Below are positions 12,781-35,204 of a stretch of DNA of 64,000 nucleotides, piece after piece. Below the pieces are notes generated by a model that had not been told where the DNA came from, ran no database searches, and worked only from the letters and a program-made list of their open reading frames with translations. Each line of letters opens with the position of its first letter. Within the stretch, counting starts at the first letter, position 1. A program made the position numbers and the translations under genes. The stretch is from an uncultured bacterium (GTDB taxonomy: Bacteria; Verrucomicrobiota; Kiritimatiellia; RFP12; UBA1067), in NCBI GenBank assembly GCA_902761035.1, contig CACWIW010000001.1:1-64000 (forward strand), written 5' to 3'.

Positions 12781-13650
12781 ATGACTGCACGGCTTCTGCA
12801 CCGTCCCGATGCAGACCGTCGCGGTTTTGCAGCGTGTTTTCACACCTCTTCCGTTGTGGGCTATCAGGAGATTGAAACTGACTATGATGTGGCGGGGACG
12901 CCGACTCATGCCAAGAACCCGATGCGTGGTTTTACGTTTGTGCCGGTGAGCGGCGCGGCGGTGTACGCGCTCGGCGATGTCAAGCCCACAAACTTCAACG
13001 CTGTTGACGGTGAGTACCTCTATCAGCTCGCCCCTGCTTCGGCGCGTCCGGCTGATGGTCAGTACATCTACCTCGACCTTGCCAACGCCAAGATTGCCTT
13101 GGATACGGAAGATGACGAAGAGGCTGGCGCACTCGTCGGTTGGTGGCTGAATGCTGTTACCGGCGATGACGAGGATCGTTGCGACACGGCGACGTTCGCC
13201 GTTGGTTCAGCATTCCTTGGCGACTTCTCTCAGGCAGCCAATGTCAGTTTCACCTGCGCAGGTGCCGTTCCCTCCACCAACATCAACGTCAACATCTCCG
13301 GCAAGGTCTATCCGATGTTTGCTAACCCCATCCCGAAGCAGATCACCTTCGGCGATGTGACGATTGGAAACATGATGGCTGTTGATGGTGAGTTCTTCTA
13401 CCAGCTCCAGCCAACAAACGCTCGTCCGGCTGATGGTCAGTATATCTATCTTGACCTTGCGAATGCCAAGATTGCCTTGGATACGGAAGATGACGAAGAG
13501 GCTGGCGCACTCGTTGGCTGGTGGCTGAATGCCGTTACTGGCGATGACGAGGATCGTTGCGACACGCTCCCGATCAAGGCTGGCGAGGCGTTCATCGGCA
13601 GCATGGGTGGTAACGCCAATGTCGTGGTGAGCTTCCCCAGGGGAATATGA
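12781..13650 (+). CDS. Module 1 gene 1: VVGY two-domain protein lacking a signal peptide
   Basis: 289 residues as an open frame. From TSSVVGYQEI (residue ~24) it consists of two near-identical domains of about 115 residues; ARPADGQYIYLDLANAKIAL and WWLNAVTGDDEDRCDT occur in both. In the complete homologue at 20986 the VVGY motif follows a cleaved signal peptide, but here it follows MTARLLHRPDADRRGF, which is not hydrophobic, and the ATG has no Shine-Dalgarno. The stretch before VVGY closely matches the stretch before module 4 at nucleotide level. As it stands the product would stay in the cytoplasm or not be made; I read it as a silent or broken copy. Function of the family unknown; presumably an envelope or surface protein. 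Confidence 0.6.
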   Translation: MTARLLHRPDADRRGFAACFHTSSVVGYQEIETDYDVAGTPTHAKNPMRGFTFVPVSGAAVYALGDVKPTNFNAVDGEYLYQLAPASARPADGQYIYLDLANAKIALDTEDDEEAGALVGWWLNAVTGDDEDRCDTATFAVGSAFLGDFSQAANVSFTCAGAVPSTNINVNISGKVYPMFANPIPKQITFGDVTIGNMMAVDGEFFYQLQPTNARPADGQYIYLDLANAKIALDTEDDEEAGALVGWWLNAVTGDDEDRCDTLPIKAGEAFIGSMGGNANVVVSFPRGI

Positions 13651-13693
13651 TTTCGTGTGTTGGACATTCTGACGCACGATAAAAAAAAGGAAA

Positions 13694-14314
13694 ATGAAAA
13701 TGAAAAAACTCATATTGGTATTAGCCGCTGCCGCTGGCATCGGCATGGCAAATGCAGCAGCCGTCACATGGGCGGCCGGTAAGCTCTACGGGCCGACCGG
13801 TGCCGATGACGGTTCGATGGGTAGTACGTTGATCACCAAGACGGACGGTGCCTGGACGGTGACGCTTCAGGTCTTCGCCGACGCGGCTGGCAACACTCTG
13901 CTCCAGTCCGACTCCTTCTCGTTCAACGTGGCGAGCGGGACGGCTACATACGCCAACAGCAAGAAGAGTGCGCTCAATGGTACTGTCGCGACCGACCTTA
14001 CCTATGGTGCTAAGGCAGCAAACGCAAACTTCTCTGGGCTGGCAGATGAGACGGGCTACTACTACAAGCTGCTCGTTCACGGCGAGACGGACACCTACAC
14101 GGCAGACAAGGAATCCGCGATCACGGCGTTCACTACCGCATCTGCTGGTGGTGTCGCCGCCATCAACTCCAACGCTGGCTCGAAGCTGGGTACGGCTTGG
14201 ACCGGCGGTGCGTGGACAACGACGCCTACGAGCAGCGGCGTTCCTGAGCCGACCTCCGGCCTCCTGCTCCTCGTGGGCGCTGGAATGCTCGCGCTTCGCC
14301 GTAAGCAGAAGTAA
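13694..14314 (+). CDS. Module 1 gene 2: PEP-CTERM secreted protein
   Basis: 206 residues, starting MKMKKLILVLAAAAGIGMANA (signal peptide) after AAAAAGGAAA. The C-terminus is VPEPTSGLLLLVGAG...ALRRKQK, the canonical PEP-CTERM sorting signal: PEP motif, hydrophobic helix and basic tail. It should be exported by Sec, then recognised and processed by an exosortase of the EpsH/XrtA type, which is not in this window. The body (VTWAAGKLYGPTGAD...) has the VxW start common to these proteins and is Ser/Thr/Gly-rich. It lies 43 bp after the VVGY gene and is followed by the conserved hairpin at 14360. Confidence 0.82.
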   Translation: MKMKKLILVLAAAAGIGMANAAAVTWAAGKLYGPTGADDGSMGSTLITKTDGAWTVTLQVFADAAGNTLLQSDSFSFNVASGTATYANSKKSALNGTVATDLTYGAKAANANFSGLADETGYYYKLLVHGETDTYTADKESAITAFTTASAGGVAAINSNAGSKLGTAWTGGAWTTTPTSSGVPEPTSGLLLLVGAGMLALRRKQK

Positions 14315-14359
14315 GGTCAGTGCTTAGTGACTAGTCACGAAGCATGAAACAGAACGAAG

Positions 14360-14390
14360 GCCCGTCCGCGTGTGCGGGCGGGCTTTCAAT
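14360..14390 (+). terminator. Conserved inter-gene hairpin, module 1
   Basis: GCCCGTCCGC-gtgt-GCGGGCGGGC then TTTCAATTTT. The same 24-nt palindrome, with the same G-U pair, lies at the matching place in all four modules. It acts as terminator or attenuator between genes 2 and 3. Confidence 0.75.
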
Positions 14391-14401
14391 TTTCCAATGA
14401 A

Positions 14402-15418
14402 ATGACATTCACGATTACATACCGTGCCAAGGACGGCGCATTGCGCGAGGAGGCCGTTGAGGCGGCGAACCGCGCCGAGTGCGTGGCGGAATGCCGCAAG
14501 CGCGGAATTGCGCCCACGAAGATTGCAGAGGGAGGGCGTGTATCCGCGCGAGCCGCAGGAGCAGGCGGAAACAGCAAGCGTACGACAGCAAGTTGGGCGG
14601 TTGCCGCCGTGGTGGCCGTGGTCGCTGTTGCGGGCGGCGTGTGGTGGTGGATGGGGCGCGAGGAACCGCAGCCTGCGCCTGCCGAGAAACCGGCGAAGGC
14701 AAAGGAGGAGAAGCCCAAGCCGCAGCCGCCCGCCCCGCCACCGGCACCTGCGCCGCCGGTGGCGGAAAAGCCGGCGAAGAAGAAGGATTTTGTGTTCACA
14801 AACAAGGTCGGGCGGATCGTGCGCGACGACAAGGTGACCGAGGACGAGAACGGGAATCTGTGGTTCATGGGTTCGCCCGTGCCGACCGTCTGCGCGGGCG
14901 ACGGATGGCTCAACGGCAGGAAGCTCGGAACGCCGGAGCATTTCAAGCACCCGTCCGAGAACTACTGGGCGCAGATGGTGCTGTCCGACCTCGGCGGCGC
15001 GTCCTCCGCGCCGTCAGAGCTGCCGAAGGGACTTGTCAGGGATATGTACGCGCAGCTGCGCACACCCGTAGAGATCGACAAGGACGACCCGCCGGACGTG
15101 GTGCAGCTCAAGAAGGACATGATCGACCTCAAGGCGGAGCTTGCCGCGCGCGTCGATGCCGGCGAGAAGCTGGAGGACATCATGGTGCAGCTACAGAAGG
15201 ACATCAACTACTACGCGAGCATGAGGGAGGGCTACCGGGACGGCCTCCGCATCCTGCAAAGGGAGGACGCGACCGCGCAGGAGATAAAGGACTACATCGA
15301 CGCCGCCAACAAGATCCTTGAGCAGAACGGCGTCAAGAAGCTCAACGTCCCGATCCGCATCAAGCAGAAGCTGCTCAAGCACAACCTTACGATTGACGAT
15401 GGAGGAGAGAAGAAATGA
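14402..15418 (+). CDS. Module 1 gene 3: single-pass membrane protein with GspF-N-like domain
   Basis: 338 residues from ATG 14402. Residues 1-45 (MTFTITYRAKDGALREEAVE...RGIAPTKIAEGG) resemble the N-terminal repeat of type II secretion GspF proteins: Y.AKD..G, A..A.C...C...GI.P..I. Residues 64-84 form one transmembrane helix ending GGVWWWM. A Pro/Lys/Ala-rich spacer follows (PAEKPAKAKEEKPKPQPP, TonB/TolA-like), then an extracytoplasmic region ending in long helices (QLKKDMIDLKAELAARVD, DATAQEIKDYIDAANKIL). The N-terminus is predicted cytoplasmic. The gene overlaps gene 4 by ATGA. The start has only a weak RBS, so expression may depend on read-through of the hairpin. Role inferred: linking an inner-membrane process to an envelope partner, probably the coupled gene 4 product. 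Confidence 0.65.
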   Translation: MTFTITYRAKDGALREEAVEAANRAECVAECRKRGIAPTKIAEGGRVSARAAGAGGNSKRTTASWAVAAVVAVVAVAGGVWWWMGREEPQPAPAEKPAKAKEEKPKPQPPAPPPAPAPPVAEKPAKKKDFVFTNKVGRIVRDDKVTEDENGNLWFMGSPVPTVCAGDGWLNGRKLGTPEHFKHPSENYWAQMVLSDLGGASSAPSELPKGLVRDMYAQLRTPVEIDKDDPPDVVQLKKDMIDLKAELAARVDAGEKLEDIMVQLQKDINYYASMREGYRDGLRILQREDATAQEIKDYIDAANKILEQNGVKKLNVPIRIKQKLLKHNLTIDDGGEKK

Positions 15419-16230
15419 AGAAAGCAGTAACCGTGTTCGCCATTGCGGCGGCGGCAGTCGCATTTTCCGCCGTGTCCGACCCCACGCAGGGCGGCAAGTA
15501 TTCCACCAACGCGGCGGAGAGGGTGCGGCAGAAGCTCAGGGAGAAGTCCTTTGAGCAGCGCATCTACGAGCACACGGGCGGTAGGGTGGCGAACCTGAAG
15601 AGCGGCAAGGGCCGCATCGTCGTCGTCAACGCCCAGAAGCTGGTGGATCAGAAGAAGGTCGCTGAATTCGTGGGCGGGATGTCGATCTTCCACGGGCTGC
15701 GCATCGAGGCGGTCGAGGGACAGGGCGCGACCCTGGCGACGGCGGACGCGCGGAAGAAGGAGCTTGGCGCGAACGCGGTGATCTTCGTCGTGCAGGACGG
15801 CGATCTCCCGTCCTCGCTCGTCGCGTATGATTCGGGATGGGCGATTGTGAACGCGGGCAAGCTGGGCGACGCCCCGGCGGTGATTCTCGGCATGAGGCTC
15901 CACAAGGCGATATACAGGGCGTTTGCGCTCCTGTGCGGCGGCGCGGACACGCCGTTCGCCGACACGATCATGTCGCCGGCGGATTCGCCGGAGGCGCTGG
16001 ACGCGCTAAAACTGCCCAACAAGCCCGTCCCCATGTGGATTGGGGTGATTCAGGAACACATGAAGCGGCTGGGGATGGAGCCGATGAAGGTAACGACTTA
16101 CCGCAAGGCGTGCGAAGAGGGCTGGGCACCTCCGCCCGCGAACGACGTGCAGAAAGCCGTGTGGGACCAAGTGCGGCAGATGCCCTCCAAACCCCTGAAG
16201 ATCGAGTTCGACCCGAAACAGGGGAAGTAA
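15415..16230 (+). CDS. Module 1 gene 4: secreted protein with GWAPPP...KIEFDP C-terminus
   Basis: 271 residues; signal peptide ~1-21 (AVTVFAIAAAAVAFSAVSD). The start overlaps the gene 3 stop (ATGA). The core IVVVNAQKLVDQKKVAEFV, the line SGWAIVNAGKL and the segment RLHKAIYRAFALLCGG are shared with the other three paralogues. The C-terminus EEGWAPPPANDVQKAVWDQV...KIEFDPKQGK is the most conserved part of the family. The order of strands and the position of R..K....A....GG recall archaemetzincin-like proteases, but no HExxH exists, so a catalytic role is unlikely. Probably a periplasmic partner of the gene 3 membrane protein. Confidence 0.65.
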   Translation: MKKAVTVFAIAAAAVAFSAVSDPTQGGKYSTNAAERVRQKLREKSFEQRIYEHTGGRVANLKSGKGRIVVVNAQKLVDQKKVAEFVGGMSIFHGLRIEAVEGQGATLATADARKKELGANAVIFVVQDGDLPSSLVAYDSGWAIVNAGKLGDAPAVILGMRLHKAIYRAFALLCGGADTPFADTIMSPADSPEALDALKLPNKPVPMWIGVIQEHMKRLGMEPMKVTTYRKACEEGWAPPPANDVQKAVWDQVRQMPSKPLKIEFDPKQGK

Positions 16231-16250
16231 GCACACCCCATAGATGCCAA

Positions 16251-16284
16251 GAAGCCGCGCCCAATCAAGCGCGGCTTCTTTAGC
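16251..16284. terminator. Bidirectional terminator between modules 1 and 2
   Basis: GAAGCCGCGC / GCGCGGCTTC stem with an 8-nt loop, T-rich on the plus side, between the convergent stops at 16230 and 16299. Confidence 0.75.
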
Positions 16285-16298
16285 ATTTATGAATCGGA

Positions 16299-17078
16299 TC
16301 ACTTACCCTTGGCGGGATCGAACTCGATCTTCATGGGTTTCTCCGGAATCTTGTGAACGTCGTTCCAGATCGCCCTTTGGTATTCATTGGTAGGTGGCGG
16401 TGCCCAGCCCTCCTGACAGGCCGCCGCGTATGAGACTCGTTGGACAGGCCTCACGCCAAGCGCGCCGGCGAACACGCCCATGCGCATGAACACGTCAGGG
16501 GGCAGCCCCTCGTCGTCGAAGCGGTCGAGCTGGCGCATCGAGCGAATCGGCCCAGCCAGCGAATCCTTGTACTGTGAACCTCCGCCGCCGCAGGCGTAGG
16601 CAAGCCCGCGCGCCAGCTCCTTACGCGCCCGCAGGGCGAGGACGGCGTCCCCCGGTTTGTCCACGGCAAGCGCCGCCACGTTCACCTGCGCCCAAAACTC
16701 GCCCGGCGACACGAGCAGGGACGCCGGCTGCGCCGCATCGTCCTTCACGTAAACCGTGACCGCCGCCTTGGGATCGGGGGCGTCCTTGAACTCTATCGGC
16801 AGCGACGAGAACCGCTTAATGTAGCGAATGGCCCGCATCAGCTCCTTTTCGGGAACCCGCTTCTGCTGGTTGACCACTGCAATGTGCCCGTTGCCGGGAT
16901 CGGGTTTCGTCACGAACCCGCCGAACACCCTGCGGTTCATTTCCAGCACCTTCTTGCGCTGTTCCGGCGTGAGGTCCGGCGGCGTTTCGGCAAACGCACA
17001 GAACACCGTGGCGGCACAGATTGCCGCGAACAGCGGCCTTGAAAATCTCCTCATATTGGAAACTTTATTCGTAATCAT
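16299..17078 (-). CDS. Module 2 gene 4: secreted protein with GWAPPP...KIEFDP C-terminus
   Basis: 259 residues; signal peptide within MRRFSRPLFAAICAATVFCAFA (an extended MITNKVSN start is used so that the ATGA overlap with gene 3 is kept). Shares with its paralogues HIAVVNQQKRVPEKELMRAI, the segment RKELARGLAYACGGGGS and the C-terminus QEGWAPPPTNEYQRAIWNDV...KIEFDPAKGK. No HExxH. The convergent neighbour is the module 1 copy, 69 bp away across the terminator. Inferred periplasmic partner of the gene 3 protein; no known activity. Confidence 0.65.
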   Translation of the reverse strand: MITNKVSNMRRFSRPLFAAICAATVFCAFAETPPDLTPEQRKKVLEMNRRVFGGFVTKPDPGNGHIAVVNQQKRVPEKELMRAIRYIKRFSSLPIEFKDAPDPKAAVTVYVKDDAAQPASLLVSPGEFWAQVNVAALAVDKPGDAVLALRARKELARGLAYACGGGGSQYKDSLAGPIRSMRQLDRFDDEGLPPDVFMRMGVFAGALGVRPVQRVSYAAACQEGWAPPPTNEYQRAIWNDVHKIPEKPMKIEFDPAKGK

Positions 17079-18070
17079 TTTTCTTGCTCCTTTGGCAGAA
17101 ACGCGGACGCGGGAATGGGCAGCGGGCGAATGCCCTCCTTGCGGAGGTCGGCGTTTACGCGCTTCAGCATCGCCCGCGCGATCTCCGGGTCGTTCTGCTC
17201 TTCCAGCACTTTGTAAATCTCCTCCGTGGCAAGTCTCCTCTTCTTGTACGCCTTGTCAAGGACGCCGTGGTAGTAGGACAGGAACTCTTCTGGCTTGCCG
17301 CCCTCCTTGATGAACTTCAACATCTCCTTCTTGGCTATCTCCAACGTCTCCTTGCTGATTTTCACTTCCTCGGCATCCTTTGCCGTGATGGGGTTGGGCG
17401 ATGTGAGGATGTTCCACATATTGGTGAGGTCGGACTGTGGAAGATCCGTCAGCGGGAGGGGCGGATCGCCGACATTGCATGTAAAGATGTCCAGCAACGC
17501 CTGTTCCGTCGAGTTGCGATGAACCGTGTTCGTGTTCCGCGCCACATACTGCACCTTGTGCAACTTCTTGCGCCCTGAACGCCAAGGCTCGTTCGGTAAC
17601 AGACCGGGCGGCGGCTCATTGGGGTTGAACGGCTTGGGACTGGCCTCCGGCTCCAGCGCGGATTCAGACGCGGGCGTGTTTGTCACGACTTCCGTCTTTT
17701 GCGGACGTGCCGCCTTGGGCTTCTCTGGCTTGGGCTTTTCCACCTTGTGTTTGGCTGGCTTTTCCGCTGGCAAGGCGTTCTTCTCGTGTCCCATCCACCA
17801 CCACACGCCACCTGCAATCGCGGCAAGAACTATCGCCGCCAAGATGGCGGCTTTCCCAGTTAGGCGGCGCGTACTGGGAGGACGAGCGTCCACGCGAGCC
17901 GCGCTACGGGATGGGCCGCGCTTGTCGCGGCCCTTACCGCCCTCCGCAATCTTCGTGGGCGAGATCCCGCGCTTACGACACTCGGCCACACATGCCGCAC
18001 GATCAGCGGCCTCCACCGCCTCCTCGCGCAGCGCACCATCCTTGCCTCGATATGTGATCGTAAAAGTCAT
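17075..18070 (-). CDS. Module 2 gene 3: single-pass membrane protein with GspF-N-like domain
   Basis: 331 residues. N-domain MTFTITYRGKDGALREEAVE...; the linker to the membrane helix (residues ~47-70, SAARVDARPPSTRRLTGKAA) is encoded by two dispersed repeats in frame (17835-17933). Then comes a transmembrane helix AAILAAIVLAAIAGGVWWWM, a Pro/Lys spacer (AEKPAKHKVEKPKPEKPKA) and a helical C-terminal domain with the line EILAR-like DPEIARAMLKRVNADLRKEG. The stop overlaps the gene 4 start by ATGA. Upstream lie a GGGCGGTCGC palindrome (18082) and the conserved hairpin (18127). Confidence 0.65.
   Translation of the reverse strand: MTFTITYRGKDGALREEAVEAADRAACVAECRKRGISPTKIAEGGKGRDKRGPSRSAARVDARPPSTRRLTGKAAILAAIVLAAIAGGVWWWMGHEKNALPAEKPAKHKVEKPKPEKPKAARPQKTEVVTNTPASESALEPEASPKPFNPNEPPPGLLPNEPWRSGRKKLHKVQYVARNTNTVHRNSTEQALLDIFTCNVGDPPLPLTDLPQSDLTNMWNILTSPNPITAKDAEEVKISKETLEIAKKEMLKFIKEGGKPEEFLSYYHGVLDKAYKKRRLATEEIYKVLEEQNDPEIARAMLKRVNADLRKEGIRPLPIPASAFLPKEQEK
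17835..17933 (-). repeat. In-frame palindromic repeats inside the module 2 membrane protein
   Basis: 17835-17880 contains GCCGCCAAGATGGCGGC, also present in module 4 (26200). 17881-17933 contains GACGAGCGTCCACGCGAGCC, related to 12112. The reading frame stays open through both. Confidence 0.7.
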
Positions 18071-18126
18071 CTTTTTCGTTTAGCAGGGCGGTCGCTTGCG
18101 ACCGCCGTCTCAATCAAAAATTGAAA

Positions 18127-18150
18127 GCCCGCCCGCACATGCGGACGGGC
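18127..18150 (-). terminator. Conserved inter-gene hairpin, module 2
   Basis: Same GCCCGTCCGC/GCGGGCGGGC palindrome (loop ATGT) between genes 2 and 3, followed on the minus strand by TTTCAATTTTT. A second GC palindrome at 18082-18104 lies between it and gene 3. Confidence 0.75.
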
Positions 18151-18193
18151 CTTCGTTCGGTATGGTCACGCATCCGGCGTGGCCGTTTCCAAT

Positions 18194-18745
18194 TTACGCC
18201 CTCTTGCGACGGAGCGCAAGACCAGCCATGCCGATGAGCATCAGCAAGCCGCTGGTAGGCTCAGGTACGTCGCTGCTAATCGTCGTCCATGTGCCAGACG
18301 GGGTAACGGAGAATGTCCTTTGAGCAGAAGCATTCGCAAACGTAATCGACTGCACGTCCGTCACCATGTACTTCGTCACACCGTCAAGGTTCTTGTCCGA
18401 CGTGTCGAAGATGATGGCATAACCGGAAACAGTCGTACCCGCACCCCACGAAGCATTATCGGTCGTGTAAGAACCGGTGAAAGTTCCGCCACTCTTCAGC
18501 GTACCGCCTTTTTGGTTGTACTCTTTCAGACCGGCATAGTTGTTAGCCTCGATTAGCGCGATGGCATCGGTCTGCGAGATTGTTTTCGCAGTCGTGCTAG
18601 ACGAATCCGATGAGATAAACGCCCAGATGCGCCATCCGTCAGACGCGCCATCCGCCGCACCTGTCAACGCCCAGTTTACCTGGGATGCCTGTGCAAACCC
18701 CGCAAAAAGCAGAGCTGCAGAAACAATTAGTTTTTTCATTTTCAT
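18194..18745 (-). CDS. Module 2 gene 2: PEP-CTERM secreted protein
   Basis: 183 residues; start MKMKKLIVSAALLFAGFAQA after ACAAGGAAA (the nine extra N-terminal codons in frame lie upstream of this ribosome site). Body begins SQVNWALTGAADGASDGWRI. The C-terminus VPEPTSGLLMLIGMAGLALR plus RKRA is a PEP-CTERM signal. It lies 51 bp after the VVGY body and ends before the conserved hairpin. Same position, leader and sorting signal as its three paralogues, but the body sequence has diverged strongly. Confidence 0.82.
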   Translation of the reverse strand: MKMKKLIVSAALLFAGFAQASQVNWALTGAADGASDGWRIWAFISSDSSSTTAKTISQTDAIALIEANNYAGLKEYNQKGGTLKSGGTFTGSYTTDNASWGAGTTVSGYAIIFDTSDKNLDGVTKYMVTDVQSITFANASAQRTFSVTPSGTWTTISSDVPEPTSGLLMLIGMAGLALRRKRA

Positions 18746-18796
18746 TTTCCTTGTTTTTTGTTTTGTCATCCCACCACCTCACGGCAGCGGAAATCG

Positions 18797-19753
18797 TTAG
18801 AGCTCGTAGGGGGCAAAAATCTTCGCCATCTTACCAGCTCCACAGTCCAACTGGAACGCATCGCCCGCCGCAATCGTGGGGATGGTCTCAATCGGCTTGT
18901 AGAAGACCACGTCCTCTTCCTCTTCGTCATCGTAATACGAATCCATGATGCCCCATGAGCCAGCATCGGTCACGTTCTTGAGGGCGATGGGCGTAGGCTG
19001 CGTAGCGCAATCAGAGGCTTTCACCCAGTGGTAGATGGCCGTCTTGATGCCGTTGCGGTCAAGGAACTGGATGTTCGCCGCACCCGTCGGGACGGTCGTA
19101 TCCATCTGGACGTCGCGAAGCTCAATCGCCGATGAGAACGGATTGCCGATATAGAAGTTACCTGTTGCTGCATTCGTGCAGGCGACATCATCGTCGGAAA
19201 CCGCGCCTGAGAACGTAACCACCTTGCCTGCGGCCGAGTCAAGTTGCACAGCATCACCGGAATCGAATGTAATCGTGCTGCCAATCGGCTTGTAGAACAC
19301 GACGTCCTCTTCCTCTTCGTCATCATAGTACGAATCCATGATGGCCCAAGCACCGTTCGCACCTTCAGCACACGGAACCGGCGTGGGCTGTGTGGCGCAG
19401 TCGGCCGCCTTCACCCAGTGGTAAATGGCGGTCTTGATGCCGTTGCGGTCAAGGAGCTGGATGTTCGCCGCGCCCGTCGGAACGGTCGTATCCATCTGGA
19501 AGTCCTTCTGGAGTTCGATGTCCGTACCATCGATGTGCGCAAAGCACGCCGTCACATAGCGGTTGCCCGTCTCGGCCGCCGCCTTGGCATTATAGCCCAC
19601 AACGGAAGGAGAGGGATTTTGATTCGCATATTCGGCATGAGGGGTTTTGCGGGGGTGCCGTGGTGACGCAGTAAAGTGCAGAAGGCAGTACCCAAACATG
19701 GGTGGGTTTGGTATAATATCCGTCGTTCGCAAGGAACGTATCATGGTGTTCAA
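18797..19753 (-). CDS. Module 2 gene 1: VVGY two-domain protein lacking a signal peptide
   Basis: 318 codons are open. From PSVVGYNAKAAAETGNRY onward there are two tandem domains sharing MDTTVPTGAANIQ, LDRNGIKTAIYHWVKA and SYYDDEEEEDVVFYKPI. The ~50 residues before VVGY (MNTMIRSLRTTDIIPNPPMF...) do not form a signal peptide. They overlap the promoter and 5' end of the divergent DUF2971 gene, so that gene may have replaced the native 5' end. I treat the VVGY part as genuine and the N-terminus as accidental. Probably silent or poorly expressed. Confidence 0.55.
   Translation of the reverse strand: MNTMIRSLRTTDIIPNPPMFGYCLLHFTASPRHPRKTPHAEYANQNPSPSVVGYNAKAAAETGNRYVTACFAHIDGTDIELQKDFQMDTTVPTGAANIQLLDRNGIKTAIYHWVKAADCATQPTPVPCAEGANGAWAIMDSYYDDEEEEDVVFYKPIGSTITFDSGDAVQLDSAAGKVVTFSGAVSDDDVACTNAATGNFYIGNPFSSAIELRDVQMDTTVPTGAANIQFLDRNGIKTAIYHWVKASDCATQPTPIALKNVTDAGSWGIMDSYYDDEEEEDVVFYKPIETIPTIAAGDAFQLDCGAGKMAKIFAPYEL
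19712..19717 (+). promoter_or_regulatory. -10 box TATAAT of the DUF2971 gene
   Basis: TATAAT 25 bp before the ATG at 19743; the -35 is unclear. Confidence 0.5.
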
Positions 19754-20612
19754 CTGCTACAAGTACACAAGCCTGAAATATGGCATCAGATCGCTGATCG
19801 ATGGAGAGTTCAAAGTAACCGCTCCAGCCGAGTTCAACGATCCACTTGATTGCGTCGGCATCGTGACAATGGAGAATCCTCCCCGTGAGGCGCTTGTTGA
19901 CTATGCCGCTACCCTTGCCAGACCATCAGGTCAAAGCGTAGATGACGTCCTCGATTCAATCCTTCAAGGCTTGTCCTTCCCGGCGCACATGAACTCGGAA
20001 TTGCTGTCCCGCAGGGTTGTAAGCAAGACACTACGTGTAATGAGCCTGAGTGACGCGAATCGATGCGACCCGAATTCTGAACAGTTGCTTTGGAGTCACT
20101 ATGCCGACGATGCCAAGGGTGTTCGTATACGCCTTGTGATCGACACGGAGTATCCATTGCCGACCCTAACGGATAAAAAGATGTGGTCGGTAAGAAGAGT
20201 GTCTTATCCGCAAGACGGCAACCTCCCTCTCTTTGACATGAAGAGCCTCAAGACATATCCAATGGATCAAGGCCTCCTCCAGTTTTACCACGTCTGCGTA
20301 TTTACCAAAGGCCACGGATGGGCGTACGAGAACGAGATTCGACTGGTGGTGAGTGCCAATGATGGATGTTGCCGCAAGGCAAAATCTCATCCAGAGGATG
20401 CCAAAGGCACCTCTGCGGATGTCATTGACATTCCTCGGTCGTGGGTCAAGGGAATAGACTTCGGCATTCAAGTAAAAGAAGGATTGGTTCAAGCATGTGT
20501 GCAGCAACTCGTCGCAGCCGGATATGACATCAATTTCAGGTGGGCACGTGTTGCCGCCGGCCAGTACGGATATTCCTATTGGAATCTCGACAAGGACGGA
20601 CTTCCCCAATGA
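19743..20612 (+). CDS. DUF2971 family protein
   Basis: 289 residues from ATG 19743 (RBS AAGGAACG). Family hallmarks: CYKYTSLKYGIRSLIDGEF, APAEFNDPLDC, SDANRCDPNSEQLLWSHYAD and WAYENEIRLV, which match the Y-K-Y, FNDP.D, LWSHY and E.E.R features of DUF2971. The biochemical role is unknown; relatives are often found in mobile and defence islands. Its base composition is lower in GC than the flanking modules, and it sits between two head-to-head copies of the four-gene module, so it is a likely insertion. Confidence 0.75.
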   Translation: MVFNCYKYTSLKYGIRSLIDGEFKVTAPAEFNDPLDCVGIVTMENPPREALVDYAATLARPSGQSVDDVLDSILQGLSFPAHMNSELLSRRVVSKTLRVMSLSDANRCDPNSEQLLWSHYADDAKGVRIRLVIDTEYPLPTLTDKKMWSVRRVSYPQDGNLPLFDMKSLKTYPMDQGLLQFYHVCVFTKGHGWAYENEIRLVVSANDGCCRKAKSHPEDAKGTSADVIDIPRSWVKGIDFGIQVKEGLVQACVQQLVAAGYDINFRWARVAAGQYGYSYWNLDKDGLPQ

Positions 20613-20867
20613 GAAATCTTCAATACAAGAATCGACTCCTCGCGCCCTCTTGCCGCCCCTTGCGCACGGCCCGACGCGGGCGGCTCGGCGCGGTTGAGGC
20701 TCGGGCGAGGGGGTGGGGCGCGGCTGGCGAAAAAAATCATCGGAGGGGTTTTCGGAGAGCGAAAAACCGAGAAAACCCAATAAACACAGGGGTTTGCGCG
20801 TTGTGGCACCCCCGGAACGGACAAAAAAGGGTAATAAAAAATTTTCACGAATTTTTGCTTGCCCCTG

Positions 20868-20896
20868 TTGACAAGCCGAATTATTTGGTTTATACT
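20868..20896 (+). promoter_or_regulatory. Strong promoter of module 3
   Basis: TTGACA at 20868-20873, 17-bp spacer, TATACT at 20891-20896, with an A/T-rich tract immediately upstream (20830-20860). The region 20613-20867 otherwise holds GC-rich sequence with no gene. Modules 1, 2 and 4 lack a comparable promoter before gene 1. Confidence 0.8.
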
Positions 20897-20985
20897 TCTC
20901 ACCGCTAAGGCAAATTGTAGAGTGGTTCTGCACAAGTCAAGGCACCGCGCCCGGCGGTTCTGGGCAAAAACAAAGGAAACGAAAA

Positions 20986-26438: not shown

Positions 26439-26549
26439 CGTTTCATTCTTCCTCTGTCTTCTGTCCTTCGTCTTCAGTCCTTTCCAAATCAGGACTGAGG
26501 GCAAAGGACAAACGCCAAAGGCGTGATTCAGGTCTGGTAAAAATTGAAA

Positions 26550-26573
26550 GCCCGCCCGCACATGCGGACGGGC
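26550..26573 (-). terminator. Conserved inter-gene hairpin, module 4
   Basis: Same palindrome (loop ATGT) between genes 2 and 3, followed on the minus strand by TTTCAATTTTT. Gene 3 starts 112 bp beyond it, further than in the other modules. Confidence 0.75.
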
Positions 26574-26619
26574 CTTCGTTCAGGTTAGATGGTCAAACAG
26601 CGTTAGACCATCAATCCAC

Positions 26620-27216: not shown

Positions 27217-27286
27217 TTTCCTTTTTTTGTTTTGTTTTTCGCCGAGAGGGTGCCTGTTCCCAGCCACCCAATCCCGTTGAAATTCT

Positions 27287-28084: not shown

Positions 28085-28224
28085 ACACCCTGCAAAACCG
28101 CGAAGGGCTACATCGGGACGGTGCAGAAACCGTGCAGAAATGTGCCGGGGATGAGTCTATGGACGGTGAAATGGCAACACAATGCGGCAATTGCCGTGGG
28201 GGTGTTGCCGACCCATCTTGCAAT

Positions 28225-29544
28225 TCAGCGACGCTTGTGTAAATTGGCTCTATCTTGCCTCGCCCTGTCGTAGTCCTTTAGAAAATCTGCAGCGACCGCG
28301 CGAAGATAGGGTTTGATGTTCGGATTGGCACTTATACTCTGAAGAATCAATGGCGCGTGATCAACAAATGGATGAACCCAATTACAGAAATAGTCATCAA
28401 GATAACCGTCTTCCCTTGCCATAAGTATTGAGGCAAATGTGGCATCCAAGCCAGTTTGCGCTTTCTCTGATTTAGATTGACTAAAGCAACTGGCAGCATA
28501 AAACAAAAAGGTGAGTTGAGTCATGTGGCTTTTCGCGCCCTTGTCGGTGAGACTCACAGCTGTCAGCCTGTAATGTTCACCCAGCATATAAAAGGGGTCG
28601 GTCAGTTCGGCCGGCATAACCGGAACCAAATTCGTCGCTACCTGCTGCTTTGCTGGTGCAACAGGCTGTTCTTCTGGAACAATTACCGGTGGCAGTTTGG
28701 CTGCATAGCTTTGTATGGACTTCGGCATTTCTGACACCCCCGTCTGATCGTCGAACTCACGCTTTGCTTTCCTCATCGCGTATGATAAACAATTCTCTAC
28801 GCTTGGCTTTGCCTTTACTTGCAAATGCAACTGCTCTGAAGATGTTTCAAGTTTTGACTTGATACTCTTGAATTCATCTTCCGGCATGCTGAACTGATCC
28901 TTAAGGTAAACAATCCTCTCGGAATTGTTGCCCCCTAGCACAGGGACGTATTTTATTACAATGAGGTCGTGAAACTCTGCCTCGCAAGTTCCACCACATG
29001 ATGCGATTTGATTTATTACGTCCGCGCACAACTTACCTTGACTTCTTCTTGGTAGTCGTTCATACAGGAGTCCATGTGTACCCTGCGACTTTTTCCCCTC
29101 GTCGTAATAATCATCCGTCATGTCGAAATAAAACGTGTTCGTCGGGATTGACTTGCCTCCTTCGCCGTTCACCTTGATTTCAAGAATTGCCAATGTTTGA
29201 ATTGACAAAACTTTCTCCAAACCATACTTCTCACAAGAAATTGCGAGCCCTTTGAGGCGTGTTTCTCCTTCCCCTGAATCTGTCTTGATTTCATGCTCTG
29301 GATGTTTGATCGTGAATATCGGCGGATTCTGCAAGGCAAACAAATGCTCTTGAAGATCGTTTGTGCGTTTTGTCTGTTCTGCGCTCCTGTAGTTGGAAAT
29401 TGCAATAACAACGGTACAAACTGTCACCGCGATAGCGTTAATAGTTGAGACGCCACCCCATTTGCCTAATGACGGTGGAGTGGATTGGGGGAAAGCCTCT
29501 TTCATAGAAGAGGGACTCTGCTGTTCGTTCTGCTTCATTTCCAT
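28225..29544 (-). CDS. Membrane protein of unknown function
   Basis: 439 residues; the N-terminal ~30 residues are polar and a single transmembrane helix (INAIAVTVCTVVIAISNY, ~35-52) follows, so the bulk is either outside or held at the inner face. The middle has a beta-rich region (NPPIFTIKHPEHEIKTDSGE, HDLIVIKYVPVLGGNNSER), then a Pro-rich linker (LPPVIVPEEQPVAPAKQQ) and a helical C-terminus with Cys and Trp (YCNWVHPFVDH-like). Promoter TTGAAC-N17-TACAAT at 29569-29597. GC content is clearly lower than in the flanking modules, consistent with separate acquisition. No family recognised. Confidence 0.6.
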   Translation of the reverse strand: MEMKQNEQQSPSSMKEAFPQSTPPSLGKWGGVSTINAIAVTVCTVVIAISNYRSAEQTKRTNDLQEHLFALQNPPIFTIKHPEHEIKTDSGEGETRLKGLAISCEKYGLEKVLSIQTLAILEIKVNGEGGKSIPTNTFYFDMTDDYYDEGKKSQGTHGLLYERLPRRSQGKLCADVINQIASCGGTCEAEFHDLIVIKYVPVLGGNNSERIVYLKDQFSMPEDEFKSIKSKLETSSEQLHLQVKAKPSVENCLSYAMRKAKREFDDQTGVSEMPKSIQSYAAKLPPVIVPEEQPVAPAKQQVATNLVPVMPAELTDPFYMLGEHYRLTAVSLTDKGAKSHMTQLTFLFYAASCFSQSKSEKAQTGLDATFASILMAREDGYLDDYFCNWVHPFVDHAPLILQSISANPNIKPYLRAVAADFLKDYDRARQDRANLHKRR

Positions 29545-29611
29545 AACCTCGGTTGAAAAGATGGTGATATTGTATCAGATACATCACATCCGTTCAATGC
29601 AAAAGCAAAGT

Positions 29612-31603
29612 TCAAGAATTTCCTGATTTCCAGAACAGCGTCGCGTGGTCGGGGTCGAGGTGGAACATCAGGGCGCGGGCGGCGGCAGCGACCGCGCCTT
29701 TGCGGGCGAGCCGCGATCGGCCCATCGCCTGTGCGCCCGCCATGAGGAAGTCGATCCCACCGGTCTCGATGAGACGCGCCGTCACGTCGTCGGCCGACAC
29801 GCCGCTCTCGGCGGCGAGGTGCTTCACGACCTCCCCGACAAGCCACGCGGGCGTGTATCGTTCCTTTGCCTCTTGCCGCGCCTTGAACGCCGCCCACTCT
29901 TCCGCCGTCCAGACCGACTGCCGCTTGGCAAGCGCCTCGGCGCGCTTCCGCCGACGGTACTCGCGGTTGTAGGCCATCAGCTTGTCGTGTCTGCGCTTCT
30001 CCCTCGCCAGCTGTTCTGCGGACGGCTCGGCCTTGCCCTCGGCCACCAGCCGACGGTGTTCGCGCCGCGCCGCCTTTGCCGCCTTGTCGAGATCCCTGCG
30101 CATCCGCCCGACAAGCCATTCGTCGAGCTTCTTGCGGCTTTCGCGGAGGTAGAGGCTCCATTGCCTGTGCTGCTCGGGCGTCCACTTGCGCTTCTTCGTG
30201 GGAAGTCCCATGCTCCGCCGCGCTATTTCCAAGCCATTCTTGTACGCCCTCACCTTGTACGCGAACTTCTCATACGCCTGTTCGAGCAGGGCTTTCCGTT
30301 CGGCGGCCTCCGCCTCCCGCGCCGCCTGTTTGGCCTGTTTCGCCGCCTGACGCTCTGCCTCGCGGGCCTTGCGCGTTGCCTCGCGCTGCGCCTCCGACGC
30401 CACACGCGCGGCCTGTGCCGCCTCCTCGCGCATCCGCCGCTCAAGGTCGTCGTCCTCGCCGCCGCCAAGGCCGACCGTGCCGCTTGGCGGCTCGACGGGC
30501 GGGATGATGAAGGATGGCTGACTGGGCGCGGGTGCGGGTTCGGGTCCGGCGGTTTCCCCGTTCCCCATTTCCCGTTCCCCGTTCCCCATTCCCCGTTCCC
30601 CGCGCTCCGCCTTGGCGGCGAGATACGCCGCCCGGTTCGCCTCGCGTTCGGCGGCGAACGTCTCGCGGGCGTTGCGTACCTCTGCAACGCGGGCGGCCTG
30701 CGCCTCTTCGCGTTCGCGGACGCGCTTTTCGCGGATGGTCCGCGCGGCCTCGCGCTTCCGACGCTCCGCCTCCTCGCGCTTCTTCTTGCGCCTCGCCCTC
30801 TGCTCGGAGCATTTCTCCCGCGCCACTGTGAGCCAGTACAGGTTCTGCGCCCTGCGCTCCTCCGCCGTGCGCGGCTTCGCATCGATGTCGCAGCCGAACC
30901 GTTCGATAGCGTCCCGGCGTCGTCTCTCCCGCTCCAGGCGTTTCGCCTCCTCCCGCAGCTCCCGCTGTCGCTCCCTGGCCTTGGCGAGCGCGGCGAGACA
31001 CCTCTCGCGCCGGGCAGCGGCGGCTTCGCGTTTCCGCTTCGCGGCCTCCTTTGCGCGCTGGTAGCTCTGGCGGCGGAGTTCGCGCACCCTCTCGGCGTGT
31101 GCCTTGCGCCACTCCCTGTTGCATTCGTTTTCGTACCGCTTCCGAGCCTCCGCCTCCTCCAGCGACATCTCCAGCGGCACGGTTCCGAGCGTGAAGCCGT
31201 AGCGCTCCTTCGCGGTAATCCGCCGTTCCTCGTGTCGGACGCGCCTCTCCTCCTTCGCGGCGACCTCTGCGGCGATCTCCGCTTCCGTCGGGACGCGCCC
31301 GAGCCGTTTCTCCAGCCTTTTGCGGAGATGCCATGCGTTCATGTACGCCCGACGCTCCTCCACGGGCTGCTCCGCCCTGTAACGTCGCTGCCAGTCGCTC
31401 ATGTAGCGGCGGCGTCCCTCTTTCTGCTCCGGCGTCCGACAGGGCACGCCGAGGCGGAATCCGTACTTCGCCTCGACCTCTCTCTGCTTCGCCCTGAACG
31501 CCAGGAACCGCGACGGCGTGAGGTCGCTCACCGTGCAGTTCGGAGGGTGCTTCCGCTCTCGCCGTCCGCCGGCTTTTCCGTTCCATGAGATCTCACCCGT
31601 CAT
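29612..31603 (-). CDS. Arg/Glu/Ala-rich coiled-coil protein, third gene of the recombinase 2 operon
   Basis: 663 residues from ATG 31603, which overlaps the previous stop (ATGA). The same frame stays open to 32368 but there only shadows the preceding gene. Most of the protein is highly charged helix (RKREAAAARRERCLAALAKA, EREEAQAARVAEVRNARETF), with short insertions such as ERGMGNGEREMGNGE that come from a GGGAA-type simple repeat. Recurrent motifs of the form AKYGFRLGV.CRTPEQKE.RR and RYGFTLGT/RFGCDIDA suggest several related small units. The C-terminus VKHLAAESGVSADDVTARLI and GGIDFLMAGA resembles that of the preceding gene. Possibly nucleic-acid binding; function unknown. Confidence 0.55.
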   Translation of the reverse strand: MTGEISWNGKAGGRRERKHPPNCTVSDLTPSRFLAFRAKQREVEAKYGFRLGVPCRTPEQKEGRRRYMSDWQRRYRAEQPVEERRAYMNAWHLRKRLEKRLGRVPTEAEIAAEVAAKEERRVRHEERRITAKERYGFTLGTVPLEMSLEEAEARKRYENECNREWRKAHAERVRELRRQSYQRAKEAAKRKREAAAARRERCLAALAKARERQRELREEAKRLERERRRRDAIERFGCDIDAKPRTAEERRAQNLYWLTVAREKCSEQRARRKKKREEAERRKREAARTIREKRVREREEAQAARVAEVRNARETFAAEREANRAAYLAAKAERGERGMGNGEREMGNGETAGPEPAPAPSQPSFIIPPVEPPSGTVGLGGGEDDDLERRMREEAAQAARVASEAQREATRKAREAERQAAKQAKQAAREAEAAERKALLEQAYEKFAYKVRAYKNGLEIARRSMGLPTKKRKWTPEQHRQWSLYLRESRKKLDEWLVGRMRRDLDKAAKAARREHRRLVAEGKAEPSAEQLAREKRRHDKLMAYNREYRRRKRAEALAKRQSVWTAEEWAAFKARQEAKERYTPAWLVGEVVKHLAAESGVSADDVTARLIETGGIDFLMAGAQAMGRSRLARKGAVAAAARALMFHLDPDHATLFWKSGNS

Positions 31604-32706
31604 GCCAAGTCCCTCCCTCCAGCATTGATGGCCGAACTGCGTTCGGCCATTCCCTCCACGGCCCGGTAGTAGAATTCCAGCGCCTCGACGGCGTCTCCTA
31701 CCCGCCCACGGAGGAGCGAATCCGCGTCCCTGCGCGGCACGGGTGGAATCGCCTCCACGCTCCGCATGAGCCAATCGACAACGCCGTCGTCGAGGAACCG
31801 CGCCATCACGCGCTGGCGGCTCATCCCGACGCGCTCGGCAAAGCGGTTCACCGTGTTTTCGAGGAAGTACGACCGCCGGGTGGCGCGTCCCTGCTCGCGC
31901 ACCGTCTCGTGCATCAGGCGCATCCGCGCGGCGACAGCCTCCTCGCGGTTCTCCCCGCCCGCGCAAGGATGCCAGCGCACGATCCTGTCCGGGAACTGGT
32001 AGCCGCGCAGCGCCCCGCCATCCTCCCACGGCCTGCGCCCCGGCATGGTCCAGAACCTCGCCCGCCGGACGAGCCGCTTGCCGGTCTCCGTCGTTACCCC
32101 CACGCCGCCGGGATGATCCGGCTGCCGGTTCAGCACGATCATCGCGTCGTGTTCGACGATCTCGCGGCAGATTACGTCCTCGTCGATGTCCTCGTCGCGC
32201 TCGAAGAACACGATCCTCCCGCAGGGCGCGCCCGCCAGCCCGAGCGCGTCCTCCGGCGTCGTGCCGACGACCTCGTGCGGGCCGGCGAACCGCCAGCCGC
32301 GCCCCCACAGCGTGACCATCGTATCGGGTGCGTCGGCGTAGGCGCACACCGGCACCTCCAGCCAGCACTCCTTCTTGACGCGGCTATCCGCCGTGCCGGG
32401 CGCGTGGATCGTCATCTCGCCCTTGCGCAGCGGTATCCTCGCGCCCGCCTTCGGAACCGCCGTCAGCACGTCGAAGTCGTCCTCGGACATCTCAAAGGCG
32501 CATCCCCAGCTCCCGTGCGCGTTCGTGTGCCAGACCTCCGGCATCCCGTCCTCGTTGATGCGCATCCCGTTGACGGCGATTCTCTTCATCGAGGCGATGG
32601 CCTCGTGCGCCTCCTTCCATTTTGGCCAGACGCGGAAGTGCAGCTTCAGCCGGTGCATCCACCGGCCGATGTACTTGCACGTCTCTGGTTGGAGGGAGTT
32701 TTCCAT
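31600..32706 (-). CDS. Hypothetical protein, second gene of the recombinase 2 operon
   Basis: 368 residues from ATG 32706 (GGGAAAGGAAG upstream). In-frame extension upstream reads only a GGGAACA/GGGAATA repeat. N-terminus KYIGRWMHRLKLHFRVWPKW is basic; the middle holds HTNAHGSWGCAFEMSEDDFD, VTLWGRGWRFAGPHEVVG and VICREIVEHDAMIVLNRQPD. The C-terminus FLENTVNRFAERVGMSRQRV then ARFLDDGVVDWLMRSV parallels the end of the next gene, so both may share a small helical domain. Coupled to it by ATGA. No known family; it could assist the recombinase. Confidence 0.55.
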   Translation of the reverse strand: MENSLQPETCKYIGRWMHRLKLHFRVWPKWKEAHEAIASMKRIAVNGMRINEDGMPEVWHTNAHGSWGCAFEMSEDDFDVLTAVPKAGARIPLRKGEMTIHAPGTADSRVKKECWLEVPVCAYADAPDTMVTLWGRGWRFAGPHEVVGTTPEDALGLAGAPCGRIVFFERDEDIDEDVICREIVEHDAMIVLNRQPDHPGGVGVTTETGKRLVRRARFWTMPGRRPWEDGGALRGYQFPDRIVRWHPCAGGENREEAVAARMRLMHETVREQGRATRRSYFLENTVNRFAERVGMSRQRVMARFLDDGVVDWLMRSVEAIPPVPRRDADSLLRGRVGDAVEALEFYYRAVEGMAERSSAINAGGRDLA

Positions 32707-32760
32707 CTTCCTTTCCCTGTTCCCTATTCCCTGTTCCCTATTCCCTGTTCCCTGTTCCCT
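32707..32760. repeat. Heptamer simple repeat GGGAACA/GGGAATA
   Basis: About six 7-nt units in the 54 bp between the recombinase stop and the next start. Related GGGAA-type tracts are at 30555-30600 and 50425-50525. Confidence 0.7.
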
Positions 32761-34955
32761 CACCCCTGCTTCGCGTTCAGGTAAACATCCAGCGCGTCAA
32801 TCGCGTCCTCCAGGGCGATGGGAACGCCTCGTTCCCACAGTTCCTGCAGGAAGCGGTAGCCGCCGTTCGCGACGAGCTTTGACGTCCCTTCGAGAAGGGA
32901 TGTCTTTTTCTGCTGGCACCACCGGCGGACGCACTTGCCGATCCATTGGTTTCGCTGGCGGCGGTTGAGCGTGGGCAGGTTCGATGCCGCCCCGCCGTCC
33001 TCGCCCCAGCCGCCGAGTCGTACCGCGTCGGCGTTCGCCGCCTCGACTGCGGCGAGCTTGCCCTCGCGCCGGAGGGCGTTCTTCTCCGCGCTCCGCCCCG
33101 TGAGCGGCGCATCGACGTGGGGGTTGGCGCGTTCCACGCCGTCCGCGCCCACGACCGTCGCGGGTTCGACCACCTCGGCGGCGGCCCGGTCCCCGCTCTC
33201 CGCGCCCTGCGCCCCGTTTCCCGCGTTCTGCGGGCTTGGCTGGGCTGGTGCGGGCTGTGGCGGCGGAAGTTGCCGGAACGCGGCAGCGGCCGCCTGCGGG
33301 GCGAAGGAGGGGCGCATCCGGCCGATGTCCGGCGGCGCGACCGCGCCCTCGCTCACGTCGCCCGTCTCGCTGATGGACGGGATTGCCTCGACCGCCTGTT
33401 GGAGGGCGGACACGTTCTCGTGGTAGTAGTGGCGAGTCATCGCCGTCGATTCGTGTCCGACGATGGCCTGGACGATGTGCAGGGGCACGCCTGCGTTGGC
33501 CGACATCGAGACGAACGTGTGGCGGAGGCTGTGGAACGTCGCCTCCGGGGCCTTGTGGGAGCGTCCCTCGACTTCCACGGACATCACGATGCCCGCGTTC
33601 TTGAATATCTTTCCGATGCGGTGGTGGACGCGCCCCATCCCTTTCGCCCCGACCGCCGCCCACGCCCCGACGGTCGGAAGCACGTAGCCCGTCCGCTTAT
33701 CGACTGGCGTCTGCATCAGGAGGTCGGCCAGCACCTTGTGGATCGGGATCGTAACGGGACGCCCCTTGCGGTACTTCTTGGTCTTCTCCGGGATCTTCTG
33801 GATGATCGAGCGGACGATGTCCACCTCCGACCACGTGAGCTTGCAGCAGTCGCCGAGGCGCATCCCGGTGTACATCGCGATGCCGAAGAGGGTGCGCCAT
33901 TCAGGCCCCTCGCGGGTGGCCACGTCAACGAGCCGCGCCAGCTCCTCCACGGTCAGCTCACGCCTCGTGTGCGAGTCGTCAGCGCGGAGGGGGAATCCCT
34001 CCCAGGGGTTCGACTTCGCCGCCGCCTTCTCCATGATTGTCCTGTGTACTTCGCGGAGGACGCACAGGCGGTTGTTGTACGTGGATGCGGACGTGTCCTT
34101 GCGGAGGTAGTTCAGGTAGTTCTCGGTGTGGTACCGCGTGATGTGCCTCACCTCCGTCACCTCCGGGAACACCCGCGCCATGTAATCGACGAACATCCGG
34201 CACACCTGGCTCTTGCCGTCCATCGTCGAAGAGGCGAGGTCGCGCCGCATGGGCGACCTCTCGTACTCGCCCCATGCGTCCGCCAGCTTCATCTGCGGCC
34301 CCTCGGCCTCCCGCATCTCGGCAAGCTGCCGCTCGGTCATCACGGCGGCCTGAATGTTCTCGAAAGTCCTCGCGGCGTCGTCCTTCACGTAAGGGGCGAG
34401 GAACCGCTTCGCGAACTGCTCCGCCTCCTCCCGGTCCCGCGTCCCGGTCGATTTGCTGACCCGCTTCCCGTTGATCAGACACCGCACCGTCCAAATGCCC
34501 GTCTTCTCCAACTGGAGACCACCCAGCCCCTTGCTGCGCCTCCGCCTCGTCTCCTTTGCCCGCTCCTTCCGCCCAGCCGGTTCCGAACTCCCGCCCGCCC
34601 CCGAACTCCCGCCAGCCGATCCCGAACTCTCACCAGCCCCCAAACTCCCGCCAGCCGGTTCAGTTCCACCGCCCCGACTTGAAAGGGCGGAATCTTCACC
34701 CCCGCCGTTGGCAGGGAAAATCATAGAGTGTGTTTCGCCAGACTGGTTTGTCGCCACCATCGAACCTTCCACAACTGGTCTAACGTCACAATTTACGTCC
34801 TGCCCACCCTGGGCGGACTGGTTTACCGCCACAGCTCCGTCATCACCATACTGGTTTATCGTCACCGATGGCGTTTTCGGCGACTGGTTTATCGTCACCG
34901 AACCGCTTTCTCCCGCCGCTTCCACACGGGCTATCTGCGTACTGTCCGTTTTCAT
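32760..34955 (-). CDS. Tyrosine recombinase (phage-type integrase) 2 with long terminal extensions
   Basis: 731 residues; RBS GAGGAAG, promoter TTGACT-N17-TACTAT. Residues 1-130 are an extension with repeated (V/A)T(I/V)NQS units (GSVTINQS, PSVTINQYG, AVAVNQSA, MVATNQSG) and a Ser/Gly-rich stretch. The catalytic domain has TGMRLGDCC (Arg366), EKTKK (Lys391), HSLRHTF (His475, Arg478) and GHESTAMTRHYYHEN (His501; Tyr510 or Tyr511). About 200 further residues follow, Pro/Ala-rich and then folded (LNRRQRNQWIGKCVRRWCQQ). The core is a clear paralogue of recombinase 1. It heads an operon with the two unknown genes downstream and lies next to the orphan signal-peptide minigene. Enzyme class sure; targets unknown. 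Confidence 0.88.
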   Translation of the reverse strand: MKTDSTQIARVEAAGESGSVTINQSPKTPSVTINQYGDDGAVAVNQSAQGGQDVNCDVRPVVEGSMVATNQSGETHSMIFPANGGGEDSALSSRGGGTEPAGGSLGAGESSGSAGGSSGAGGSSEPAGRKERAKETRRRRSKGLGGLQLEKTGIWTVRCLINGKRVSKSTGTRDREEAEQFAKRFLAPYVKDDAARTFENIQAAVMTERQLAEMREAEGPQMKLADAWGEYERSPMRRDLASSTMDGKSQVCRMFVDYMARVFPEVTEVRHITRYHTENYLNYLRKDTSASTYNNRLCVLREVHRTIMEKAAAKSNPWEGFPLRADDSHTRRELTVEELARLVDVATREGPEWRTLFGIAMYTGMRLGDCCKLTWSEVDIVRSIIQKIPEKTKKYRKGRPVTIPIHKVLADLLMQTPVDKRTGYVLPTVGAWAAVGAKGMGRVHHRIGKIFKNAGIVMSVEVEGRSHKAPEATFHSLRHTFVSMSANAGVPLHIVQAIVGHESTAMTRHYYHENVSALQQAVEAIPSISETGDVSEGAVAPPDIGRMRPSFAPQAAAAAFRQLPPPQPAPAQPSPQNAGNGAQGAESGDRAAAEVVEPATVVGADGVERANPHVDAPLTGRSAEKNALRREGKLAAVEAANADAVRLGGWGEDGGAASNLPTLNRRQRNQWIGKCVRRWCQQKKTSLLEGTSKLVANGGYRFLQELWERGVPIALEDAIDALDVYLNAKQG

Positions 34956-35036
34956 GTTGCTTCCTCAAACCTAATTTCGCGCCGAGAGGCACAAAAAAAG
35001 ACGTCCGAAGGCCCGATTGCCCTCAAAACGCCGCAC

Positions 35037-35065
35037 ATAGTACAGTATAAACCAGTATGAGTCAA
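35037..35065 (-). promoter_or_regulatory. Promoter of recombinase 2
   Basis: Minus strand -35 TTGACT (35060-35065), 17-bp spacer, -10 TACTAT (35037-35042). An ACTGGTTTAT element inside the spacer is also repeated within the coding region (34738-34895), a possible protein-binding repeat. Confidence 0.6.
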
Positions 35066-35120
35066 GGGGTCACATTCAAATTCCTTTGATTTTATTGGGG
35101 TTTCTGCGTCTCGTCTAGTT

Positions 35121-35204
35121 TTAGCCGACCGTGTTGGCGGACTCAATCGCGCCTACTGCGCCGCAGAACGCCGCGAGCGCTGTTGCAATCATAAGTTTCT
35201 TCAT
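35121..35204 (-). CDS. Orphan VVGY signal-peptide minigene
   Basis: 27 codons: a perfect Sec signal peptide, MKKLMIATALAAFCGAVGA, then IESANTVG and TAA where the Tyr of VGY should be; a second stop (TAG) follows one codon later. The RBS and start region (AAAGGAAACGAAAAATGAA) are almost identical to those of the complete VVGY gene at 20986. It has its own promoter at 35453-35481. No VVGY body follows. It looks like an expression site without its cassette, or a remnant from which the body was lost. Compare the bodies at 12781, 18797 and 27287, which lack this part. Confidence 0.7.
   Translation of the reverse strand: MKKLMIATALAAFCGAVGAIESANTVG

Follow-up and report, generated by a model that had tools for sequence, protein, structure and literature searches.

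The window, the whole 64,000-nt stretch of DNA analysed here, came from a 6.1-Mb MAG and contained an array of four similar four-gene modules arranged as two convergent pairs. Module 1, which adjoined the recombinase gene int1 (12853 onward, + strand), converged with module 2 (19603 downward, − strand), and module 3 (20986 onward, +) converged with module 4 (28069 downward, −). The gene order was the same in each module: a protein whose mature part begins with VVGY was followed by a PEP-CTERM protein, an MTFTITYR protein and a WAPPPTN protein. The VVGY-start part is called the body. Body 1 (12853-13650, +) was leaderless, and the downstream genes of its module were located at 13694-14314 (PEP-CTERM), 14372-15418 and 15415-16230. 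Body 2 (18797-19603, −) was also leaderless, with the genes at 18769-18194 (PEP-CTERM), 18070-17075 and 17078-16299 behind it. Body 3 (21055-21849, +) was joined to a leader and was followed by genes at 21952-22509 (PEP-CTERM), 22581-23666 and 23663-24451. In module 4, leaderless body 4 (27287-28069, −) preceded genes at 27267-26620 (PEP-CTERM), 26561-25356 and 25359-24526. The start of all four bodies was marked by the 11-mer GTTGTGGGCTA. Exact copies in the window were confined to four positions, 12853 (+), 19593 (−), 21055 (+) and 28059 (−), with about 0.03 expected by chance on both strands. The sequence-only reading had described this 11-bp sequence as common to modules 1 to 4, and all four positions were found again.

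Expression signals were then assigned to the modules. Leader 3 (20675-21065, +) carried a promoter (TTGACA-17-TATACT at 20868-20896), an RBS, an ATG at 20986, a signal peptide and the core GTGGGCTA at 21058-21065. This leader was 83-85% alike to a leader of genome G011 as far as the core. Among the modules, the combination of promoter, RBS and signal peptide was present in module 3 alone, as had been proposed. Modules 1, 2 and 4 began leaderless at VVGY, and neither a promoter nor a start codon with signal peptide was found in front of their bodies. The sequence-only reading had listed one complete VVGY gene. A second complete gene with a signal peptide (IESGNVVGYHSH) was located at about 3922-5265, outside the array, with its core at 4012 and without arm repeats. 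A DUF2971 gene lay at 19647-20612, between RS2 (described below) and leader 3.

In the other genomes compared, a recombination site (RS) preceded the leaderless bodies. It combined CTGCAC arm repeats, set in phase, with the core GTNGGNTA, and the distance between arms and core was fixed. The beginning of the mature protein, V-G-Y, was encoded by this core. The arms comprised two or three copies of CTGCAC spaced by 10-11 bp, and with few exceptions they lay 78-79 or 88-89 bp from the core. In the window, RS1 (12785-12863, +) had CTGCAC at 12785 and 12796 and the core GTGGGCTA at 12856-12863. RS4 (28059-28137, −) had arm repeats and a core at 28066-28059. In the case of RS2 (19593-19681, −), the arms were degenerate (CTGCAC, CTGCGT, CGGCAC), the spacing was 89 bp, and the core was at 19600-19593. 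RS1 and RS4 were 87% identical over the 86 bp upstream of modules 1 and 4, and this identity stopped at the core. The shared 11-mer was real, but the shared DNA was longer than 11 bp, with module 2 keeping the arm spacing although its arms were degenerate. The RS pattern was derived from members of the family and then counted in that same family. There it matched 34 distinct sites, spread over 20 of 115 genomes, and the reversed pattern gave 3. Only one match, probably due to chance, was obtained in 47 further genomes of the order. Among the matches listed for viral contigs, the count was at the level estimated for random hits, given the size of that collection, and was thus uninformative. CTGCAC arms plus GTNGGNTA served as the signature for RS.

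The recombinase gene next to module 1 was investigated in the same genomes. int1 (11333-12718, +) encoded a tyrosine recombinase of the RS-linked family. Tyrosine recombinases had been reported beside module 1 and beside the leader at 35204, and both were present, as int1 and as int4 (34955-32760, −). Relatives of int1 were found in 27 of the 115 family genomes, usually as a single copy per genome. RS and int1 occurred together in 18 genomes and both were absent from 86 (p=1.6e-12), while 2 RS genomes lacked int1 at the cut-off used and 9 int1 genomes lacked the strict RS pattern. In seven genomes int1 and a leaderless body pointed the same way, with int1 about 90-140 bp upstream. In other genomes it was divergent from a leaderless body or located elsewhere. 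The int1 flanks in G073, G113 and G121 were not syntenic, so that any action of int1 in these genomes would have to be in trans. The core catalytic motifs were invariant among 17 sequences. The structure model of int1 (pLDDT 70.7, moderate) showed an N-terminal beta-beta-beta-alpha segment of the arm-site-binding kind, followed by core-binding and catalytic domains, and lambda integrase was among its best structure matches. The int1-like genes in viral contigs were only about a third identical. Named relatives with the integrase were mostly Kiritimatiellae or Verrucomicrobia MAGs, several of them from ruminants. These results supported a tyrosine recombinase as the likely agent of exchange, with an int1-family recombinase probably the catalyst. 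A 2.36-kb block of int1 and the preceding module gene was 94% identical between G011 and G023 (L058 1474-3782, L064 1577-3931), although the genera differ, which pointed to recent transfer.

The leader at 35204 gave a different picture from that of module 3. It was a cut-off signal peptide (35122-35204, −) broken after TVG. It read MKKLMIATALAAFCGAVGAIESANTVG and then TAA, with the core GTCGGCTA at 35129-35122 followed by AAACTAG inside an integrated element. The element (28067-35129, −) was about 7 kb long and was bounded by two directly oriented cores at 35129-35122 and 28066-28059, so that RS4 doubled as its right end. It carried int4 (32760-34955, −), orfB (32763-31600, −), orfC (about 31590-29612, −) and memD (29544-28225, −). 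The 35204 leader and body 4 were on the same strand, and joining the flanks restored an open frame. Most simply, the two would be halves of one gene that was split by the int4 element. The signal peptide had been read as an orphan followed by a stop where VGY should continue. The stop was confirmed, but the leader appeared to be the upstream half of split gene 4 and not a spare expression site. No intact orthologue of gene 4 was found in the genus, and thus the uninterrupted gene 4 itself was not seen.

Related elements were found in other genomes. The int4 element was also present in G011 (87% identical over 5.6 kb), where it lay behind a leader nearly that of module 3. The module-3-type leader thus bore a body, uninterrupted, in the window and the element in G011. 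The junction of leader, VG, stop and integrase recurred in G011, G094 and G100, which indicated that the core was also an insertion site for mobile elements. The G100 element (contig L189/L423) carried terminase and replication-initiation genes, and AbiE toxin-antitoxin genes were present in the elements of G011 and G094 (recognised by eye in G094). The left end was found in four genomes and the right end, RS4, in the window alone. On this evidence, the int4-type element is a mobile element targeting the leader core. Genes like int4, orfB and orfC travelled together with variable cargo such as AbiE or terminase (window 28067-35129, L057, L420, L189). Their C-terminal ends were alike by eye, and the set is possibly an undescribed three-gene integrative element. 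A VGY gene on another contig, L070 (G000:C170), matched the 35204 signal peptide in its 3' half, with identity over 45 bp (3098-3142). The 5' half in that gene was replaced by unrelated DNA beside a transposase-like gene.

Expressed and silent bodies were compared to determine how the leaderless copies differed. A promoter scoring at least 10/12 was found 198-256 bp before the core in 8 of 9 leader flanks, compared to 0 of 25 RS flanks (p=5e-7). The proposal of one promoter-bearing leader with leaderless cassettes in the array was thus supported. The sequence-only reading had also considered simple decay, in which modules 1, 2 and 4 would be dying genes that had lost their leaders. The missing promoter and signal-peptide start codon of bodies 1, 2 and 4 would fit this. 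However, their frames of 260-268 codons were open and intact, and the frameshifts or relaxed selection of dead genes were not found in them, the omega between their internal repeats being 0.12-0.22. For the two repeats of each window body omega was 0.06-0.22, and it was 0.08-0.28 between expressed and silent bodies, giving 0.06-0.28 overall. In addition, many genomes broke at the same codon and always behind the same site. Decay was rejected on the open frames and omega, and we regard it as barely credible. The silent bodies were thus under purifying selection and kept functional, as would be expected with occasional expression.

Each window body was an internal duplication (12971-13566, 18889-19504, 21178-21814 and 27309-27967). 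The halves were 82-84% identical in DNA and resembled one another much more than they resembled other bodies, suggesting that the repeats are homogenised inside each gene. A confident model of the mature protein (pLDDT 89.5) gave no structure match with a TM-score above 0.25, and therefore no function was assigned to it. The best profile match of body 4 (23.1 bits) and of the leader-borne body of G119 (40.3 bits) was the NCBIfam paralog family TIGR02597, both below its curated cut-off of 50 bits. For the majority of bodies there was no match to TIGR02597 at all.

The conserved VVGY codons had been proposed as a crossover point, and comparison between species agreed with this. In all pairs examined, leader or RS flanks that were 82-98% alike between species lost their similarity exactly at the core, and the bodies beyond it were unrelated. 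The RS flanks of G073 and G113 were 97.5% identical over 1,672 bp, and those of G086 and G072 were 91.4% identical over 3,463 bp with int1 within. Both alignments ended at the core with unrelated bodies beyond. G122, set against both, was 83-84% identical over 1.25 kb ending at the core. The leaders of G113 and G121 were 85% identical over 469 bp up to the core, again with unrelated bodies beyond. Between the different genera of G078 and G008, the left flanks were 81.8% identical over 2,197 bp, ending at the core. Apparent partner exchange was clearest when the leader loci of G073 and G113 were compared. The DNA in front was 98.3% identical over 1.2 kb and the leaders aligned to the last core base, while the proteins behind them were 24% identical in amino acids. 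DNA identities to the right of the core covered a few aligned bases and were left aside. The leader-borne body of G073 was instead 84% identical to the body behind the G121 leader. The converse was observed in G113, G121 and G119, where similar bodies stood behind a leader and behind an RS with unrelated upstream DNA. These three genomes also had one leader-body plus leaderless bodies, like the window (1 + 3). All leader-body combinations within the window remained in frame. In the case of G011 (L159 428-560), one RS core was joined to a body without its first residues, and either a secondary recombination site or an assembly error could account for this. Taken together, these comparisons of sequence gave good support for cassette exchange at the VGY codons of the core.

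Based on these results, we propose that operons for exported proteins are very probably exchanged as cassettes in this array, in a site-specific manner. One leader would supply the promoter, RBS and signal peptide up to the core GTNGGNTA, and the other operons would be silent behind RS. A lambda-type recombinase of the int1 family would most likely bring the core of the leader together with that of an RS and exchange everything downstream. Inverted cores would give inversion, and direct cores would give excision or integration. Since exchange between inverted cores would be an inversion, the whole four-gene operon would move behind the promoter. Two invertible segments with inverted cores were predicted in the window. 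A flip of the 6,993-bp segment at 21066-28058 would join module 4 to leader 3 and leave module 3 behind RS4, with in-frame products. A flip of the 6,729-bp segment at 12864-19592, between RS1 and RS2, would exchange the silent modules 1 and 2. Elements of the int4 type would insert at the same core, and one would now separate the 35204 leader from body 4. Surface variation is a plausible use of such a switch. A more tentative reading, to which we give somewhat less than an even chance, is that the operon switch and the mobile-element family share one site. Insertion of an element would silence a leader and leave a new arm-bearing site before the body. In this way, elements could have founded the silent cassettes and supplied the shuffling recombinase.

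Two other explanations were weighed against cassette exchange. If mobile-element insertion were the only process, the leaderless bodies would be the downstream halves of interrupted VVGY genes, and no expression switching would occur. The 35204 leader and body 4 fitted this exactly, and the leader-stop-integrase junctions of G011, G094 and G100, the terminase and replication genes on the G100 contig and AbiE in the G011 and G094 elements were also in its favor. However, G121 had tandem leaderless bodies without an element between them, and a search upstream of int1-RS-body loci for cut-off leaders found none. Close species showed different bodies on the same leader or RS flank, and an RS was the right end of an int4 element in the window alone. 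Insertion by itself was thus considered unlikely. The exchange could also be homologous recombination or gene conversion among paralogous VVGY genes, without a dedicated recombinase. Bodies within G113 and G121 were 78-82% identical over 1.2 kb, which is sufficient for such a process, and the internal repeats suggested conversion inside genes. In contrast, swapped bodies were often unrelated in DNA, and to the left of the breakpoint leaders and RS had only about 8-14 bp in common. One breakpoint position was used in many independent cases, and neither the fixed-spacing RS arms nor the link to int1 would be expected. This made homologous exchange highly improbable as the explanation, and site-specific exchange at the core was preferred to both.

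Some observations gave hints of variation within populations. Of the 34 RS sites, eight were no more than 150 bp away from a contig end, compared to 0.5 expected, although repeated RS copies could also cause such breaks. In G011, two contigs shared exactly 99 bp up to the core and then diverged, as expected if the assembly branched at that point. In G032, an RS was joined to a body start that differed at 1 of 96 bases from the leader-borne body on the same contig. The excess at contig ends, the 99-bp branch and the G032 joint are suggestive only. Switching within living populations is inferred and is more likely than not.

The proposed system resembles known switches in part. In Mycoplasma pulmonis vsa (HvsR) and M. 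agalactiae vpma (Xer1), a unique promoter, or a promoter with a 5' coding region, is joined to silent genes by site-specific inversion (PMC2268961). The single promoter-bearing copy, the silent genes and the tyrosine recombinase encoded nearby were similar here. However, phased arm repeats were present on the silent side, and the constant coding part was the signal peptide only. Four-gene operons stood behind the site, mobile elements used the same core, and the host belonged to the Kiritimatiellae and was not a mycoplasma. In the shufflon of IncI plasmids, the tyrosine recombinase Rci joins a constant N-terminal part of pilV to alternative segments via short inverted sites. The constant N-terminal part and the exchangeable downstream segments were alike, but here nearly the whole mature protein would change and the cassettes were complete chromosomal operons. 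Lambda-type integrases (PDB 1Z1B) were comparable in the arm repeats at a fixed core distance and the predicted N-terminal arm-type segment of int1. The int4 element was also lambda-like in its integrase, the direct core copies at its ends and its phage-like relatives. In contrast to such integrases, the target core was located just past the signal peptide in a paralogous gene family, and int1-RS units were present at loci without a visible second element end.

Among the open-licence papers searched, none combined the phylum name with phase variation, and none on such a system in this phylum was found. As far as our searches show, this would, if correct, be the first exported-protein cassette-exchange switch described for the Kiritimatiellae, a large group of the rumen and gut of which most members are uncultured. 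The switch would change nearly the whole mature protein and the operon, and only the promoter and export signal would be retained. The target choice of mobile elements would be tied to the origin of a variation system. The signature of CTGCAC arms plus GTNGGNTA makes switching measurable in existing long-read metagenomes.

Other repeats were observed in the window. Short dispersed repeats, up to 100% identical and some also present in G011, were located at 35712-35802, 36518-36640, 38100-38247, 46118-46395 and 47254-47585 and were unrelated to the cores. In addition, a 1.7-kb stretch at 43190-44848 was 92% identical to L160 8880-10570, near an RS site in G011.
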